From Flavobacteriales bacterium (GTDB lineage Bacteria; Bacteroidota; Bacteroidia; Flavobacteriales_G; JALEGO01): a stretch of 64,000 nucleotides of DNA. A program made the translations under genes and the position numbers. The notes below the pieces were generated by a model. It was given only the letters and a program-made list of their open reading frames with translations, was not told where the DNA came from and did not search any database. Positions 15,597-39,897 of this stretch are shown in pieces (within the stretch, counting starts at the first letter, position 1; each line of letters begins with the position of its first letter). Where the stretch lies: the NCBI GenBank assembly GCA_020628935.1, contig JAHDEG010000009.1, positions 1-64,000 of the forward strand. The letters run 5' to 3'.

Positions 15597-16416
15597 GCTA
15601 TCAAAAATCTTAATCCTTTCTTTTTCAGTTCATTTATTACTGAACTCATGTAAGTCAAAAAAAGGACTTTTTAGAAACAAAAACACAGCTAAAAGCTCAC
15701 AAGAATCAATAAAAAACTACCTTAAAGACAGTATAGCAATATCTCCCAAAATCAAATTTTTAAGCTTTAAATTAAACGGGAAATATGAGTGTAAAGAAAG
15801 AAACTTACCAATAAAAGCGAGCGTAAGAATTTATAAGGACAGCCTAATTTGGGCTTCAATCACTCCTCTATTGGGAATTGAGGTAGCAAGAGTACTAGCA
15901 ACAACAGATTCTGTATTTGTAATTAATAGACTACAAAGCCAGGTTATGAAAGGCTCAGTTAAAAATTTTACAGAGCAATATAATATTTCAAACGGGTTAG
16001 AGTCAATAATTAATGTCATTTTAGGAAGAGCTTTTTTACCCGATACACTTGTAAATAGTAAAACAATGGTAAGAAATAAAGACACTCTATCTGTACTAAC
16101 CACATTTAACGCATTTGATATAAAAACTAATTTACCCGACACCTATAATTATAAAACCAATATTATAAAGAAAGAGCAAAAAATTGTCAGTCAAAACATA
16201 GCTAAACATAACAAAAGCCAGTCTTTAGGAGCTTCCTATTCAGATTTTCAAAACATCTCCTTCGAAAACGGAGTATTTGCCATACCTTTTCAACAATCAT
16301 TTCATATTTTTGATGGAGATGATATTAAAATTGAAGGAAAACTTAGTAAAATGGACACTGCAAAATGCATGTTCCCGTTTAATATATCAAAGAAGTACGA
16401 AGTTGTCTATTTCTAA
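15589..16416 (+). CDS. DUF4292-like lipoprotein
   Basis: Lipobox LLLNSCKSKKG; position between TPR and M23 genes. Confidence 0.7.
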   Translation: MSKLSKILILSFSVHLLLNSCKSKKGLFRNKNTAKSSQESIKNYLKDSIAISPKIKFLSFKLNGKYECKERNLPIKASVRIYKDSLIWASITPLLGIEVARVLATTDSVFVINRLQSQVMKGSVKNFTEQYNISNGLESIINVILGRAFLPDTLVNSKTMVRNKDTLSVLTTFNAFDIKTNLPDTYNYKTNIIKKEQKIVSQNIAKHNKSQSLGASYSDFQNISFENGVFAIPFQQSFHIFDGDDIKIEGKLSKMDTAKCMFPFNISKKYEVVYF

Positions 16417-17575
16417 AATTTTATTTTTTCTACTCCTATCAGTTTCTATATCAGATATAGCTATTGGCCAATCAGATCCCAAAAAGCTGGAAGCTAAGAA
16501 AAAAGCTATTCAAAAGCAGCTAAAAGAAACAAACGCTCTACTTAGCACTACAAAGAAAAACCAAAAAGCAACACTTCAAGAATTAGAACTAATAAAAGCT
16601 AATTTAGGAGCTCGAAAAGAATTAATAAGTACAATTAGACAAGAAATAAACCAAATTGATGAGCAAATTGAAGAAACAAATGATATTATTTCTTCCATGC
16701 AATCCGACTTAAAAAACTTGAAAGATGAGTACGCAAAAATTATTGTAGAATCTTACAAAAACCGATCTAAGTACGATCGTTTAATGTTCATACTCGCTTC
16801 AGACAATTTTAACCAAGCCTACAAACGTTACAAATACCTTCAGCAATATATAGAATACCGCCAACAGCAGGCCAGTTTAATTCAAGAAAGCCAAACCAAC
16901 CTTAATAACAAAGTAGAGCAGCTAACTCAAATAAAAAACAAGAAATTAGGTCTCCTTCAAAATAAAAACAGCGAAAAAAAGTCGCTCGACTCAGAAAGAA
17001 AAAAACAAGAAGAAACCATAAATAAACTAAAAAGCAAAGAAGGAGAACTTAAAGATCAACTTAAAAAGAAACAAAAAGAACTTAAAAAATTAGACGCGGC
17101 CATTAAAAAAGCAATTGACGAAGCAAACAAAAAGGGAGCTCTAAATAAAGCAGAAGTTAAGCTCATGGCAGAGTTTGAGAAAAACGTTGGCAAACTCCCC
17201 TGGCCTGTTTCAGGTAAAATAACCGGCAAATTTGGCCGACAGCAACACCCTGATTTACCAGGCATTTATATTGACAACGATGGAATTAACATAACCCCCA
17301 TTTCAGGCAAAACAGTAAAAGCAGTTTTTGATGGCGAAGTAACCATGGTAGTAATTATTCCCAATGCTGGTAAGGGCGTACTTGTAAGACATGGTAAATA
17401 TATAAGTGTGTATTTTCAAATGGATGAAATTAACGTAAAAAAAGGTCAGCAAGTAACTACGGGAACAGTTTTAGGCACAGTAGGAAATAACGAAAACGGA
17501 CTGCCCGAGTTACGTTTCGAAATAAGAAAAGGTAAAATAGCCCTTAACCCTAACAAGTGGCTAAGAAAAATGTAA
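16403..17575 (+). CDS. EnvC-like murein hydrolase activator / M23 peptidase
   Basis: Coiled coil then LPWPVSGKITGKFGRQQHP...VRHGKYISVYFQM...VGNNENGLPELRFEIRKG. ORF track starts at 16277, but in-frame TTG at 16403 gives signal peptide (L/M)SISKILFFLLLSVSISDIAIGQ. Confidence 0.85.
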   Translation: MSISKILFFLLLSVSISDIAIGQSDPKKLEAKKKAIQKQLKETNALLSTTKKNQKATLQELELIKANLGARKELISTIRQEINQIDEQIEETNDIISSMQSDLKNLKDEYAKIIVESYKNRSKYDRLMFILASDNFNQAYKRYKYLQQYIEYRQQQASLIQESQTNLNNKVEQLTQIKNKKLGLLQNKNSEKKSLDSERKKQEETINKLKSKEGELKDQLKKKQKELKKLDAAIKKAIDEANKKGALNKAEVKLMAEFEKNVGKLPWPVSGKITGKFGRQQHPDLPGIYIDNDGINITPISGKTVKAVFDGEVTMVVIIPNAGKGVLVRHGKYISVYFQMDEINVKKGQQVTTGTVLGTVGNNENGLPELRFEIRKGKIALNPNKWLRKM

Positions 17576-17681
17576 AATAACCAGGGCGTAACCCCGCTAT
17601 TCGCGCGGTCGGGTTTTACCCTACAGCTCCTCGCTCGCAAAGCTCTCTGTGGGGTTTCCACTTCACCCCCTTACGCAAAAT
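17531..17681 (+). repeat. Direct repeat pair I, copy 1: 45 nt of M23 CDS 3' end plus GGGCGT...ACGCAAAA repeat (core 17584-17680)
   Basis: 151 nt aligning ungapped to 19827-19977 with 4 mismatches. Confidence 0.97.
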
Positions 17682-17977
17682 AGCTTCATTACAAGGCTAA
17701 AACAGTTTTATTTGAACCATTAACTGACTAAAGCTACTCGCTAATATTTGCACTAACAAAGTCGATAATTTCAAAGATTGGAATATTAGTTATTCCATTA
17801 ATAATTTCATATTTATACGTGTTTAGAGTTGGCGAAAGTATTATCTATATAATATCATCAGATATGCATAACTTAAAAGAAATAACCATAAGTGAACTAC
17901 AACTATTAAAAGTATTATTGCAGAACAAATGTTAGCAATATATAAAGTATTAATCATCAATATATAATTCATCTCCT

Positions 17978-19618
17978 ATGAACGATTCCCGATTTCCTGA
18001 ATTATCCTCCAAACAAATACAAAACCTATCCAAGCTTGGTGTAGAAGAACATTTCAATGAGCCAACTCGTATTTTTTCTTTAGGAGATTATCAATACGAC
18101 TTTTTTGTAGTGTTAAAAGGAAAAATATTAGTGACTGATGCAGGAGACCACTCAAATATAATTGCCGAACACACAAAGGGACAATTTTCAGGAGATTCAG
18201 GAATGTTATCTAACCGAAGGGCTCTTTTTAATGCTACAACAACTTCAGACACTAATTTATTAAGAATTACACCAGAAAACCTAAAAACCGCGATTTCAAC
18301 CTACAGCGACATTAGTGATGTATTACTAAACGCTTTTTTATTGCGAGATGAAACTGTGCTGAAAGATTTTGAGGGAGGAATTAAAGTTTTTGGCAAGAGC
18401 GATTCCAATAACACATATACCATTCGCGACTTTATGGAAAAAAATCATATTTGGCATACGTTTGTCGATGTGGAGAAATCTGAAGTGTCTTTAGAGTTAC
18501 TAGAACAATTTAACCTTGATACAACTGATTTTCCAATTCTTATAGATAGCGATGGAAGAGTAGCTGTTAACCCTAGCATTAAGAATCTAGCTAAGTATAC
18601 GGGTGTATTAATGGATTTTGAGGATGAAATTTTTGATGTTTTGGTCATCGGAGCTGGGCCAGCAGGATTAGCCGCAAGTGTTTATGCCGCCTCCGAAGGA
18701 TTAAGTGTAGTAACTATTGACTGCAATGCCCCTGGCGGACAAGCTGGTAAAAGCTCAAAAATTGAAAACTACTTGGGTTTTCCAACAGGAATTTCCGGTG
18801 GTGACCTTGCAAACAAGGCGTACATACAAGCACAAAAATTTGGTTGTAAAATATCCATTCCCCACAAGGCAGAAAAATTTGAATACAATGGAGATTACTA
18901 TTTAGTAACAGTTTCAAATAGTAATATAATTAAAACCAGAACTATTGTAGCAGCAACAGGTGCCAAATACCAACGATTACCAGCAAAAAACCTTTCCAAA
19001 TTTGATGGAATCGGAGTATATTACAGTGCTACAGGAATGCATGCAGCTCAATGTAAAGACTCAGATATTGGAGTTGTTGGCGGAGGCAATTCTGCTGGCC
19101 AAGCCGCTTTATTTTTATCTGATTTTGCCAGTAAAGTTTATATAATTTTAAGAGGAGATGATTTAGGGGCTAAAATGAGTGATTATTTGGTTCAAAGAAT
19201 AATAGCCTGCGAAAACATAGAAGTATTGCTTAATACTAGCGTTACTGAGCTTAAAGGAAATACACAGTTAGAGTCTTTACTTATAAAATCAAAAAACGGT
19301 AAAGAAGAAGAGAAAAACATAACAAATCTTTTCACGTTTATTGGCGCAAAACCAAGCACTGATTGGTTAAACAATCTGGTTGAAACAGACGAAAAAGGAT
19401 TTATTTGTACTGGAAATTCAATTTCCTCAGAATCAATTGCTAATTCAGAGGCCTTCAAAAATAGATTGCCTTATAATTTTGAAACAAGTACCTGTGGATT
19501 TTTTGCTGTAGGAGATGTGCGAAAAGGTTCAGTAAAGCGGGTTGCGTCAGCTGTGGGAGAAGGATCTGTAGTCGTGAGCGAAATTCATAGTTATCTATCG
19601 CTTCGAAGAGATAATTAA
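17978..19618 (+). CDS. Cyclic nucleotide-binding domain / thioredoxin reductase-like FAD oxidoreductase fusion
   Basis: N-terminal CNMP-type barrel (FFVVLKGKILVTD...GQFSGDSGMLSNRRALFNATT), middle Grx-like segment, C-terminal VIGAGPAGLAASVYAASEGL...GGGNSAGQAALFLS; canonical CATC replaced by SATG. Confidence 0.88.
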   Translation: MNDSRFPELSSKQIQNLSKLGVEEHFNEPTRIFSLGDYQYDFFVVLKGKILVTDAGDHSNIIAEHTKGQFSGDSGMLSNRRALFNATTTSDTNLLRITPENLKTAISTYSDISDVLLNAFLLRDETVLKDFEGGIKVFGKSDSNNTYTIRDFMEKNHIWHTFVDVEKSEVSLELLEQFNLDTTDFPILIDSDGRVAVNPSIKNLAKYTGVLMDFEDEIFDVLVIGAGPAGLAASVYAASEGLSVVTIDCNAPGGQAGKSSKIENYLGFPTGISGGDLANKAYIQAQKFGCKISIPHKAEKFEYNGDYYLVTVSNSNIIKTRTIVAATGAKYQRLPAKNLSKFDGIGVYYSATGMHAAQCKDSDIGVVGGGNSAGQAALFLSDFASKVYIILRGDDLGAKMSDYLVQRIIACENIEVLLNTSVTELKGNTQLESLLIKSKNGKEEEKNITNLFTFIGAKPSTDWLNNLVETDEKGFICTGNSISSESIANSEAFKNRLPYNFETSTCGFFAVGDVRKGSVKRVASAVGEGSVVVSEIHSYLSLRRDN

Positions 19619-19826
19619 AGGAATAAATAGTTTGTAAATAATCTACAATCCCCCAAAAAAAATTCTTTATTTAAAACACTATAATACTACAGAAGTGAAA
19701 ATTGTACAATACAATGGGAGCGGAATAATAAATATTAACGGGAAATAACTTGCCTAAACGGCATCTTCTATTGCCTGTTCTGAATTCATTATAATTAACC
19801 AGCCATATAACAAATAAATCACTAGC

Positions 19827-19977
19827 GGTAAAATAGCCCTTAACCCTAATAAGTGGCTAAGAAAAATGTAAAATAACCAGAGCGTAACCCCGCTATTCGC
19901 GCGGTCGGGTTTTACCCTACAACTCCTCGCTCGCAAAGCTCTCTGTGAGGTTTCCACTTCACCCCCTTACGCAAAAT
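19827..19977 (+). repeat. Direct repeat pair I, copy 2: orphan copy of M23 gene tail (GKIALNPNKWLRKM*) plus GGGCGT-type repeat (core 19880-19976)
   Basis: 151 nt, 4 mismatches to 17531-17681, all transitions. Confidence 0.97.
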
Positions 19978-19984
19978 TGTATTT

Positions 19985-20758
19985 TTAAAACACCCCATAA
20001 AGCTTCGCTACAGAAACAGCAAGCATCAAATAAAAAAGAATTTTAACAACACTATTTCCTTTCGGGCTCTCGGTGGCGATTTTAGCACCTATCCATCCTC
20101 CCAAACCTTGGCCCAATGCCAATACTCCAGCAATTTTCCACTCAATTAACCCATAATACATAAAAAGTATAATAGTAGGTAGGCTATATGTAGCAACAAC
20201 TAAATTTTTAATTGCATTTGTTTCATCGGCAGGTTTCCCCTGTAAAAAGTGTAGAAATCCAAAAAAAATCAACCCAAAACCAGCCTGAATAAATCCTCCA
20301 TAAAACCCCAAAATAGAAATAACAATAATACTTACATATAAGGGAATAGTAAATAAACCAGCTTTACCCTTAAAAACAACATCTTTTATATTTAAAAAAA
20401 CAATTAAAACTACCAAACAGCTTATAACAGTTTTAACAACCCAAGCCATACTCTGCTCGGTTACATTAGAGGCAATATAAGCGCCTATTAAAGCTGTTAT
20501 TACAGATGGCAACACATAATATAGTAGATGCTTTTTACGAATTAACCCCTTCCTTATAAAGGAGTAAGAGCTAACAGAAGTTTGTACAAAAATACCTAAA
20601 CGGTTAGATGCATTTGCAGACAACGCAGGTAAACCAACCATCATCAAAAAAGGAAGTGTTATTATAGATCCTCCCCCAGCTAATGTATTAATAACACCAA
20701 CTACAGCACCCAATACAAAAGTAGCTACAAGCTGAATTAATCCATTATCAAATTCCAC
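19985..20758 (-). CDS. TauE/SafE-family (TSUP) membrane permease
   Basis: GAVVGVINTLAGGGSIITLPFLMMVGLPALSANASNRLG...GFYGGFIQAGFGLIFFGFL. Confidence 0.9.
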   Translation of the reverse strand: MEFDNGLIQLVATFVLGAVVGVINTLAGGGSIITLPFLMMVGLPALSANASNRLGIFVQTSVSSYSFIRKGLIRKKHLLYYVLPSVITALIGAYIASNVTEQSMAWVVKTVISCLVVLIVFLNIKDVVFKGKAGLFTIPLYVSIIVISILGFYGGFIQAGFGLIFFGFLHFLQGKPADETNAIKNLVVATYSLPTIILFMYYGLIEWKIAGVLALGQGLGGWIGAKIATESPKGNSVVKILFYLMLAVSVAKLYGVF

Positions 20759-27007: not shown

Positions 27008-27076
27008 GGGCACCCGAGCGGGCTATTCACTATATCTTTTTTTTACAAAAAAGGATGCCGTTGCTATCCCTGGTGC
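27008..27076 (+). repeat. Decayed copy of GGGCGT-type repeat
   Basis: GGGCacccgaGCGGGCTATTCACTATATC...AAAGGATGCCGTTGCTATCCCTGGTGC parallels the 3' module GGGTACCACTGCTGCCCTTCACGC of the intact copies. Confidence 0.55.
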
Positions 27077-27450
27077 AGTTTGGTACTACTACTGATTGTG
27101 TATTCTTATTTCGATTAACCTTGTTTAAAAATCATCCACTAAAACTCTTCCCTAGCCAGCACAGGAGTATTAGCTTATTGCTGATTAGCACTTTAGTTTA
27201 AGCGTTGTGTATGAGCGACCTTGGAAGCCATTTACACTGCGTTTATTACTTGTGCTAAAAAAATAACTAAAGCGGACAGCCGGGTATTGCTCACATGAAT
27301 AACATATAGACTAAAATACCTCTTCTCAAATTTCTCGCCCTGTAAAAAAAATTTTGACTTTATTTTTAAATGTTTAAACAAAAAGCACACGGTAATGTTA
27401 CAACAAATTAAAATTTTAACTTGGCTTAATTATCACAAACAAAATAAACC

Positions 27451-27990
27451 ACTATGGACTGAAAGTACCATAGTTTTGTAACGGACTAAAAGTCCTAGTT
27501 AATCAATTATGAATTCAGAATTTGTATTATCACCTGGTTTTCGATGATGTTCTAGATATTCATTAACCATTTCATCCGTTATGTTTCCTGTGCTCCAACA
27601 ACCATAGCCTATAGACCAAAAGTGACGACCCCAGTATTTCTTCTTTAATTCAGGAAACTCCATCTGCAATTTCCTAGAACTGCGACCTTTCAATTTTTTA
27701 ACTATACCACTTACCGACTGTGAGGGACGATAATTTATGTGCATATGAACATGATCTTTAGAGACAACTCCTCGAACATTTGAAATATCCTCCGCCTCAC
27801 AAATCTGGATTAACAAGCTACGACACCTAATTTTAATGTCATTTTGAAGAACAGCATAACGATACTTGGTAGCCCAAACTATATGAACAGTAAGGCGGGA
27901 AACTGAATGACTATGAGAACGTTGTGATTCCATAGTTAAAGTTAATATTTTTAGAAGCTAAAGCGAAATGCACTAAAGTGCATAGTTTTA
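27451..27990 (-). mobile_element. IS200/IS605-type insertion sequence, single-gene form, with end hairpins
   Basis: Y1/HUH transposase flanked by hairpins 27451-27474 (ACTATGG-ACT-GAA-AGT-A-CCATAGT) and 27968-27983 (ATGCACT-AA-AGTGCAT), both followed on the + strand by CATAGTTTT; further hairpin GGACT-AAA-AGTCC at 27483-27495. Exact termini not determined. Confidence 0.85.
27499..27933 (-). CDS. tnpA: IS200/IS605-family transposase TnpA
   Basis: VHIVWATKYRYAVL, HUH motif KDHVHMHI, Y-containing helix GYGCWSTGNITDEMVNEYLEHH. Confidence 0.95.
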   Translation of the reverse strand: MESQRSHSHSVSRLTVHIVWATKYRYAVLQNDIKIRCRSLLIQICEAEDISNVRGVVSKDHVHMHINYRPSQSVSGIVKKLKGRSSRKLQMEFPELKKKYWGRHFWSIGYGCWSTGNITDEMVNEYLEHHRKPGDNTNSEFIID

Positions 27991-36583: not shown

Positions 36584-36680
36584 GGGCGTGCCCCTGATTA
36601 AATCAGGGTCAGGCCATACGTTTTACGCTTCATTCGCTAAGCTCATTGCAGGGTACCACTGCTGCCCTTCACGCAAAAAA
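36584..36680 (+). repeat. Direct repeat pair II, copy 1 (GGGCGT...ACGCAAAA)
   Basis: 91-nt core aligns ungapped to 39801-39891 with 4 mismatches; internal hairpin CCCTGAT-TAA-ATCAGGG. Confidence 0.95.
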
Positions 36681-36688
36681 AATAAAAT

Positions 36689-36721
<33 letters not shown>

Positions 36722-36768: not shown

Positions 36769-39700
36769 ATGAATTCAACATATAAAGCGCTCATTTTATT
36801 TTCCTATATTTTACTCTTTGCTAATTATAGCTACGGACAGAGTGTAGGCGTAAACTCAGATGGCTCTGCACCAGACGCTTCTGCCATTTTAGATGTAAAA
36901 TCTACCACAAAAGGCTTACTCGTACCACGAATGACTACAGTACAACGTAATAATATAACATTGCCCGCAACAGGCTTATTAGTATTTGATACTGACGAAG
37001 ATGCACTATATGTAAACACAGGCACGGGTGCTTCACCAGTATGGGAGCAAGAATTAACAGATAATAACCAAACAGGTTGGAGCTTAACAGGAAACTCAGG
37101 TACCTCTACCGGAACTAATTTCTTAGGCACAACCGATGCTAGAGACTTAGTTTTTAGAACTAATAACACTGAGAAAGCAAGAATAAGAAGCAATGGTAAT
37201 TTTGGTTTAGGAATTATAAACCCAGCGAGTAAACTACATGTTTCAGACGGTAATAGCGTTTCCTCAAGCTTATATACTACAGACTACCAAATTATTTCTG
37301 CACAAAACACAGCTCCAGGTTTTAATATAATTTCTTCATCAAGTAGTTCAGCAGCACATCGGGGTGTTTTTAAAGCTACCAGATCAAGAGGCTCTTTATC
37401 CTCCCCTACTAGAGTACAAAATGGTGACCAAACATTTTCACTATTAGGTTCAGGTTACGATGGTACAAATAATTTAGCAACAGCGGGTATAAGTTTTTTA
37501 GTTGACGGAACAACCAATACCAATGTAATACCACAGGCAATAATTTTTGAAACCTCAGAAACCACTGGACGAAATGAAAGACTTAGAATAGCTGCCGATG
37601 GTAATGTAGGTATAGGTACAAGTGATCCTGCTGCAAAATTAGAAGCAGTAACCAACAGTTCATTAGCCTATTCGGCAACAACCCAATCTATCACTACAGG
37701 GGCATCTGATGTACTACTACTTTCTAACAACAACGCAAATGCAAATGTAACCTACTTAAAATTTCAGAATAGATTTTCTGGAAGTTCAATGGCACGTATC
37801 GGACTTGTACACGATGGCGGAGCTGATGGATCTCTGGTTTTTCAAACAAGAAATGGTGGCGGACAAACAACTGAGAAAATGCGACTACATCGAAACGGAA
37901 ATGTAGGTATTGGAACAGATAACCCCGTCTCCAGGTTAGATATTGACAATGGTAAATTAAGTATTGAATCTGCCAGTAACGGAAGAAACTGGCTATTTGG
38001 AAGCACGACAGCTACTTCTTCAGGTTTATCTATAAACTATAGAGGAACAGAAGATAAAATTGTATTTGCCCCTATTGGCAGTACTGGTGGCAACTTTCAA
38101 CTACAAATTGATAATGCAAATTCTCAAACTTTTCCTAATTATTCCTTTATTGGGGATAACAATACAGGCATGAGAAATGTTACAAGTTCACCTGACATGT
38201 TACGTTTTACAACAGGGGGAATAGATAGATTAACTATAAATAGCGCAGGAAATGTCGGAATAAATGAACTAAGTCCAGACGAAAAACTACACGTTGTTGG
38301 CTCCATAAAAATGGAAGACGGAAACCAAGGAGCAAACAAAATATTAGTGTCTGACGCAAATGGTGTGGGTAGTTGGCAAAATGCAAGCTCTGTTAGTGCA
38401 GGCATATATGGCGGTAATGGTACAACTCCTAGCGCAACAGCAGTTACTGTAACCGATAATATTAACTTTGATAGCAACACCCTTTTTATTGATGGCACTA
38501 AAAATGAAGTGGGTATTGGAACAAACTCTACAGTTGCAAAATTAACATTAAGAGGTATTGTATCGGGTGAACTAAGATTACTCGATTTAAGAAATAATTT
38601 TGGAGCAGCAAACGATATAACATCTATAAGAATTGATGCGGGTGGAGGAGCTAATTCAGGAACGTTTTTAAAACACATGAGACAAGGTGTTGCTGGAGGT
38701 GATTTCGCAATTTTTACATCGGCAACTTCAACAGGAACTTCATTTGAACGATTTAGAATTAGTAAGGATGGTAATGTAGGTGTTGGAACTGACGACCCTA
38801 AAACAAAGTTGCAAGTAAGTGGCACACACTTAATAACAGGTTCAGACGGAGCTGGAGACCCTAGTGCAGATGGTTTAGCTTTAGACTACACAGCTACCGA
38901 AGCACGAATTCGAGCTGCAGATGCTGTAAATGGGGGCGACATGCCGTTAACCTTTTACACGTCCGAAGGCGGCTCCGTAGAAGAAAAACTTAGAATTGAT
39001 CCTTTTGGAAATGTTGGAATAGGATCATCTTCTCCAACTGAACAACTACACGTTTCATCTGAAACAGATCATACATGGAAAAGAGAAGTGTATGGAACTA
39101 ACCCTGGCACTATAAGAATTGACTGGAGAAGAGGTACTAGAACTGCTCCATTAGCACCTGCTGTAAATGATGAGATAAGCTTGCTTAGCTTCTATACTGG
39201 CGGCTCATCAGGTGGGGTATTTGCGAATCCCTCTGTAGAAATAAAAGCTAAAATAGCCAGTATGGGTTCTGCAGTTTCAAATACAGATCTAAAATTTAAC
39301 GTAATAACTAGTGCCACGGGTCTGCCGATTGAAGCTATGACCATTAAAGGGCTTACTGGTAATGTGGCTATTGGCAATGTTGGAACCGTAGACGAAAAAC
39401 TTGTAGTTCGTGGCAACGTAAAAGCTATTTCTTTTATAGCTACAGCTGCGAGTACGGGCGCATACAAGTACAACACAACATCAAATATGAGCGTACCCGA
39501 TTACGTTTTTGAAAACTACTTTGACAGCAATACCAAAAACAACCCAGAATACAAACTACTTTCCCTCAACAAGCTAGACTCTTACATAAAAAAGAACAAG
39601 CACTTACCAAGAGTGCCAAGTCGCGAGCAAATATTAAAAGATGGTGCTATAAACCTACAAGCCTTAGGTATGGTAACTTTAGAAAAAGTAGAAGAGGCGC

Positions 39701-39783
39701 ATTTATACATTTTAGAGCTTGAAAATAAAAACCAGCAGTTAGAAAAACGTATTAAGCGACTAGAAAAATTAATCTCTAAGTAA
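36769..39783 (+). CDS. Large exported surface/tail-fibre-like protein with GNVGIGTxxP repeats and C-terminal coiled coil
   Basis: Signal peptide [18 protein letters not shown]; recurring [57 protein letters not shown]-term [10 protein letters not shown]...[27 protein letters not shown]...[21 protein letters not shown]. Confidence 0.85.
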
Positions 39784-39800: not shown

Positions 39801-39897
39801 GGGCGTGCCCCTGAAAAAATCAGGGTCAGGCCATACGTTTTACGCTTCATTCGCTAAGCTCATTGCAGGGTGCCACTGCTGTCCTTCACGCAAAAAA
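39801..39897 (+). repeat. Direct repeat pair II, copy 2 (GGGCGT...ACGCAAAA)
   Basis: 91-nt core, 4 mismatches to 36584-36674; hairpin stem CCCTGA/TCAGGG kept, loop changed. Confidence 0.95.

Follow-up and report, generated by a model that had tools for sequence, protein, structure and literature searches.

We found that the two near-identical repeats flanking a redox gene in a Flavobacteriales bacterium carry a member of a dispersed family of DNA elements, which would form hairpins, mirror the Flavo-1 RNA on its opposite strand, and mostly sit just behind stop codons. The explanation we favour, to which we give an even chance of being right, is local copying or conversion, at replication forks, of a DNA element prone to hairpins, as opposed to the movement of a gene cassette. 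The copy behind an M23 peptidase gene, together with that gene's last codons, would have been copied about 2.3 kb downstream, giving the pair of repeats seen here (pair I). We infer that the hairpin would stall a replication fork, whereupon the nascent strand would switch template, a mechanism reached by inference just as is that of the insertion alternative considered below; another copy or a site no more than a few kb away would be the easiest target, whether direct or inverted. The redox gene, an accessory gene, may lie between the copies by chance or may have been brought in by the same event.

Pair I lies in the window, by which we mean the whole stretch of 64,000 nt that was analysed. 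An earlier note on this DNA had described the pair as 151 nt long (17531-17681 and 19827-19977), ungapped, with 4 differences, and as enclosing exactly one same-strand gene; direct comparison bears out the alignment, and the gene is at 17978-19618. The differences (n=4) are AACAAG/AATAAG, GGGCGT/GAGCGT, ACAGCTC/ACAACTC and TGTGGGG/TGTGAGG, the copies are spaced 2296 nt apart, and their match (E = 5e-69) is far beyond chance. Overlooked in the earlier note was that the 5' copy starts within the coding sequence of the M23 peptidase (16277-17575): the shared stretch of 151 nt consists of 45 nt of coding sequence with the stop codon, a spacer of 8 nt and an element of about 96 nt. Because the M23 C-terminus NP..W(L/I) is common to relatives, the native tail is that at 17531-17575, and therefore 17531-17681 is the parent copy and 19827-19977 the derived copy, which holds a duplicate of the last codons of the M23 gene. 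The features of the window are listed below, where R1 is a covariance model built from 11 copies of the element.

16277-17575, plus strand: M23 peptidase (EnvC-like), the upstream core gene, in a conserved TPR-DUF4292-M23 block.
17531-17681, plus strand: repeat copy 1, the parent, with the last 45 nt of the M23 coding sequence, the 8-nt spacer and the core at 17584-17679 (from direct comparison and the M23 C-terminus against relatives).
17584-17679, plus strand: core element, Flavo-1-like, GGGCGT...ACGCAAA (R1 match of 101.9 bits).
17978-19618, plus strand: cNMP-binding and thioredoxin-reductase-like fusion of 546 aa (Pfam PF00027 and PF07992), accessory by its distribution, enclosed by pair I.
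19827-19977, plus strand: repeat copy 2, derived, with the M23 3'-end remnant and spacer at 19827-19879 (4 differences in 151 nt).
19880-19975, plus strand: core element, second copy (R1 match of 97.4 bits), its end 9 nt from the convergent TauE stop codon in the ORF table.
19985-20758, minus strand: TauE/SafE permease, the downstream convergent gene.
27008-27079, plus strand: diverged third relative of the element (R1 match), with an Rfam Flavo-1 match on the minus strand at 27012-27078.
36584-36677, plus strand: second pair, copy 1, of another subtype, identity confined to the element.
36769-39783, plus strand: gene inside the second pair, encoding 1004 aa without a Pfam match; one of a paralogous family, with 8 matches in the genome.
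39801-39894, plus strand: second pair, copy 2, identity confined to the element.

The second pair (36584/39801), which the earlier note had also reported as enclosing one same-strand gene, does so: its copies are 96% identical over 98 nt and the enclosed ORF of 1004 aa spans 36769-39783. At 36697-36720, shortly 3' of the first copy of this pair, the dinucleotide GA is repeated over about 24 nt.

The core element, about 95 nt long (GGGCGT...ACGCAAA), is a dispersed repeat. The covariance search that the earlier note had proposed returned 40 R1 copies in the draft genome of 2.13 Mb, which is 82% complete. R1 copies were also found in 10 of the 31 genomes of a search of relatives (source genome included), and a class-wide sample of 396 genomes gave R1 matches in 113. 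In three genomes, near-identical copies have sharp ends (TTT, then GGGCGT...ACGCAAA) and unrelated flanks; that they share the element ends and not the flanks speaks for local copying. No target-site duplication is evident by eye in the flanks of near-identical copies, and the single element-level empty site has diverged flanks. Subtypes average about 57-60% identity, with no mosaics between them among the copies, and blastn of the element against phage and plasmid collections gave no match.

The repeat family is tied to the Flavo-1 RNA motif (Rfam RF01705; Weinberg et al. 2010, PMC2864571) by position and structure, sharing its places and fold family. In genome G393, 40 of the 62 R1 matches coincide with RF01705 matches, every one of the 40 on the opposite strand. 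The gathering score of RF01705 (42) is passed in the window by the diverged copy only, whose direct minus-strand match at 27012-27078 forms the link between the repeat family and RF01705. Pair I falls below that threshold: no Flavo-1 match appeared in 17500-20100 even at E<=5, and Rfam on the repeat itself gave a chance match only. Given the opposite-strand overlaps in G393 and the match at 27008-27079, sequence comparison identifies the repeat as Flavo-1 on its mirror strand; since Rfam's model misses pair I, this pair belongs to an unrecognised subfamily. A literature search that took in few subscription journals found nothing on such repeats in Bacteroidota. Within the same coverage the family is partly known, having been described as an RNA whose function is unknown; no account turned up of Flavo-1 as a DNA repeat, of an opposite-strand subfamily or of a proximity effect.

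One indication of local copying is that the most similar copies sit together in two genomes. In the source genome (G000), ranking the 528 copy pairs by similarity puts three adjacent pairs at the top, each on the same strand and 2.3-3.2 kb apart (permutation p<5e-5). In G273, the top 2 of 1540 pairs are likewise adjacent, 1.6 and 1.9 kb apart, and inverted (p=4.5e-4). Local copying accounts for direct and inverted neighbours alike, for identity that stops at the element ends in some pairs and runs into adjoining sequence in others, and for the correction of hairpin arms described below. Against it, G393 has no proximity effect; its near-identical copies are dispersed, and therefore long-range movement must also exist. 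The earlier note had suggested asking if same-subtype pairs bracket single accessory genes more often than expected. Same-subtype copies are indeed close neighbours beyond chance in G000 and G273, but not in G393, and the third pair in the source genome, on contig C6, encloses three genes (gene names for contig C6 and for G018, G044 and G273 were read from translations alone).

A layout like that of pair I was found in G044, where a direct pair 2.7 kb apart encloses two accessory-looking genes in the order core gene, repeat, accessory-looking genes, repeat, convergent core gene. Here homology runs past the element on both sides, and in pair I on one side, which fits the copying of a segment and not of a fixed unit. 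The G044 pair (contig C86, L298:4878-7734) encloses genes for a CHRD-like protein and a small lipoprotein-like protein, and its homology takes in an apparent intrinsic terminator whose stem is broken in the second copy.

These two loci are also well explained by the main rival, in which an accessory gene was inserted with target duplication. The redox gene, the M23 tail and the repeat, for example as a circle or fragment from a relative, would have entered at the M23-repeat region through general homologous recombination, so that this region now stands as a direct repeat on both sides. Consistent with this, the derived copy contains part of the M23 coding sequence, as Campbell-type integration leaves, and the extended homology and layout of G044 follow as well. 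The distribution of the redox gene also agrees. The earlier note had stated that a TrxR-like gene kept at the same place by all relatives would tell against its own proposal of mobility; we found a homologue in 4 of 30 relatives, at 42-43% identity only, whereas homologues at 56-65% occur in other Bacteroidota. The TPR-DUF4292-M23 block is kept across relatives, without the redox gene alongside. On this distribution we classify the redox gene as accessory, and it was probably acquired horizontally. In 401 kb of flanks of 24 redox-gene homologues, we found neither the R1 repeat nor the neighbours that the gene has here. Insertion leaves unexplained the inverted near-identical pairs and those pairs whose identity ends exactly at the element ends, and it requires that the donor had this subtype at this very locus, yet subtypes differ by about 40% within a genome. 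We regard insertion as possible and somewhat doubtful.

Elements are gained and lost both with and without genes. Between the sister species G018 and G019, four elements are unshared; of the two sites read, one differs by an element only and one by an element plus a gene. At the latter, between folP and accA, G018 has an element and one gene that are both absent in G019. The joint presence or absence of the two as a block also favours insertion. The gene concerned (L325:3889-5089, G018 contig C19, versus L336 in G019) encodes an apparently secreted protein of 310 aa. At the other site, an element behind a long ORF of G018 (possibly dnaE, read from its translation) is missing in G019. That element (L326:3962-4063, minus strand, G018 contig C17) overlaps the stop of the ORF and supplies its last codons. 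Six sister species of G393 are without the element seen behind a conserved gene in G393. Empty sites were also sought in the source genome's own genus, but none of the relatives is of that genus.

The earlier note had proposed that the repeat acts as an integron-cassette-like recombination site, with a site-specific recombinase using it in the manner of attC and moving units of a gene and its 3' repeat. Some features recall this. Genes are enclosed by pairs, the single strand folds strongly with covariation, and, like the imperfectly folding attC sites placed behind a gene's stop codon, 19 of the 32 copies examined in the source genome lie within 30 nt behind a same-orientation stop codon (2 of these behind doubtful short ORFs). 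Units of one gene and one same-orientation site, arranged in arrays, were not found. The best pairs of G273 are inverted, and therefore no circle could be excised from them; the C6 pair holds three genes; and there are no arrays. Recombinant sites would mix subtypes that differ by about 40%, yet there are no mosaics. The 24 redox-gene homologues lack repeats, and no recombinase domain occurs among the window genes scanned around pair I, nor was an integrase seen near it. Unlike attC sites, moreover, the repeat has a branched fold, has direct and inverted neighbours, and is gained or lost without genes. Because of the inverted pairs, the lack of subtype mosaics and the movement of the repeat without genes, the cassette proposal is not supported, and we consider it highly improbable.

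Movement of REP-like elements in trans by a Y1 (HUH) transposase was also considered. The discrete ends, the dispersed near-identical copies and the hairpins with two fixed T.G mismatches would suit it, and a Bacteroidota subclass of RAYTs (2.6) is reported to have atypical flanking structures that recur at other places in the genome (PMC6006769). The repeat resembles REP/BIME elements served by RAYT (TnpA-REP) in being a small, intergenic, palindromic repeat of high copy number with discrete ends, often behind genes. It differs from them in being longer (80-112 nt, branched), in having no GT[AG]G foot and in that no RAYT was found beside its copies here. The only Y1 transposase match of the genome does fall in the window, at 27499-27933 on the minus strand. 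This gene is of IS200/IS605 type and lies about 420 nt from the diverged Flavo-1-like copy at 27008-27079. No Y1 gene flanked by repeat copies was found; the sole R1 match near one (L116) is that same diverged copy, and the flanks of the IS200-type gene are unlike the repeat. In relatives, 11 RAYT-like genes with a subclass 2.6-type motif (YIH[QN]NP and variants; L358, L359, L360, L361, L366, L371, L373 and others) carry neither an R1 nor a Flavo-1 element at their loci, and elements occur in G003 and G008, where Y1 gave no match. With unrelated flanks at the IS200-type gene and no such repeats alongside the RAYT-like genes of relatives, we rejected the Y1/RAYT link for this family and hold movement by a Y1 transposase in general to be improbable.

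The fold of the element bears on both local copying and a function as RNA. Across 33 copies of the source genome, pairing holds in 95.9% of cells, and changes on both sides are seen in 21 of the 25 pairs; these figures are far above shuffles and slid controls, in an alignment fitted to, and hence biased towards, the model. T.G is fixed at two positions. Outside these, G.T and A.C cells are about equally rare, at 7 vs 10, 7 vs 4 and 9 vs 8 in three genomes. An RNA helix is expected to tolerate G.U and not A.C, so that the near-equality suggests DNA complementarity instead of RNA pairing. Double changes together with this symmetry agree with local copying, and template switching has been proposed as a source of double changes without intermediates (PMC8794818). 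The double changes could also stem from strong selection on the hairpin.

Comparison of G018 and G019, which are about 83-90% identical in DNA over these loci, identified eight orthologous elements, mostly better conserved than the adjoining intergenic DNA. In one G019 element, the right arm repeats the left as an exact reverse complement for 32 bp, whereas the G018 orthologue is imperfect. The perfect palindrome has a 4-nt loop (L335:4040-4141, minus strand, G019 contig C5, versus L324:4039-4141, minus strand, in G018). A perfect arm of this kind is what template-switch correction leaves in a quasipalindrome (PMC7202029); here it is a single case, with the direction of change assumed, and to that extent it favours local copying. 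Quasipalindrome mutation by template switching (PMC7202029, PMC8794818) matches our observations in the perfect palindrome against its orthologue and in double changes with few wobble intermediates. It differs in that it is known for the correction of arms in place and not for the copying of whole elements kilobases away; the insertion of a templated segment of 80-190 nt at such a distance would be unusual for template switching.

If the element were instead a conserved functional RNA, a 3' UTR or an sRNA as Rfam files Flavo-1, its near-identical neighbours would reflect ordinary gene conversion. The extreme covariation, the G.U pairs fixed at two positions of the R1 strand, and conservation above that of most adjoining intergenic DNA between G018 and G019 are as expected of an RNA. 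However, Rfam's model is on the strand opposite to the fold modelled here, and G.T and A.C are otherwise symmetric. In a published Flavobacterium transcriptome, Flavo-1 matches are equally sense and antisense, many of them beyond transcribed regions (PMC9723704). This lack of a consistent strand or of strand-consistent transcription sets the repeat, which behaves as a dispersed DNA repeat, apart from an RNA family and is in keeping with local copying. We judge a functional RNA very unlikely.

We tentatively extend local copying to the class as a whole, in a form that may well prove too broad. Flavo-1 would be a DNA element and not an RNA, and hairpin-driven template switching would both keep its arms complementary and copy the element, at times with pieces of adjoining genes, a few kb away, giving rise to near-identical pairs around accessory genes class-wide. 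Rfam lists Flavo-1 among sRNA families whose function is unknown, and the Flavobacterium transcriptome found no sense in its strand or transcription. If Flavo-1 is a DNA repeat, its covariation would be an effect at the DNA level, which calls for caution in covariation-based RNA discovery, and Bacteroidota would have a REP-like class of their own in which the locality of copying can be measured.
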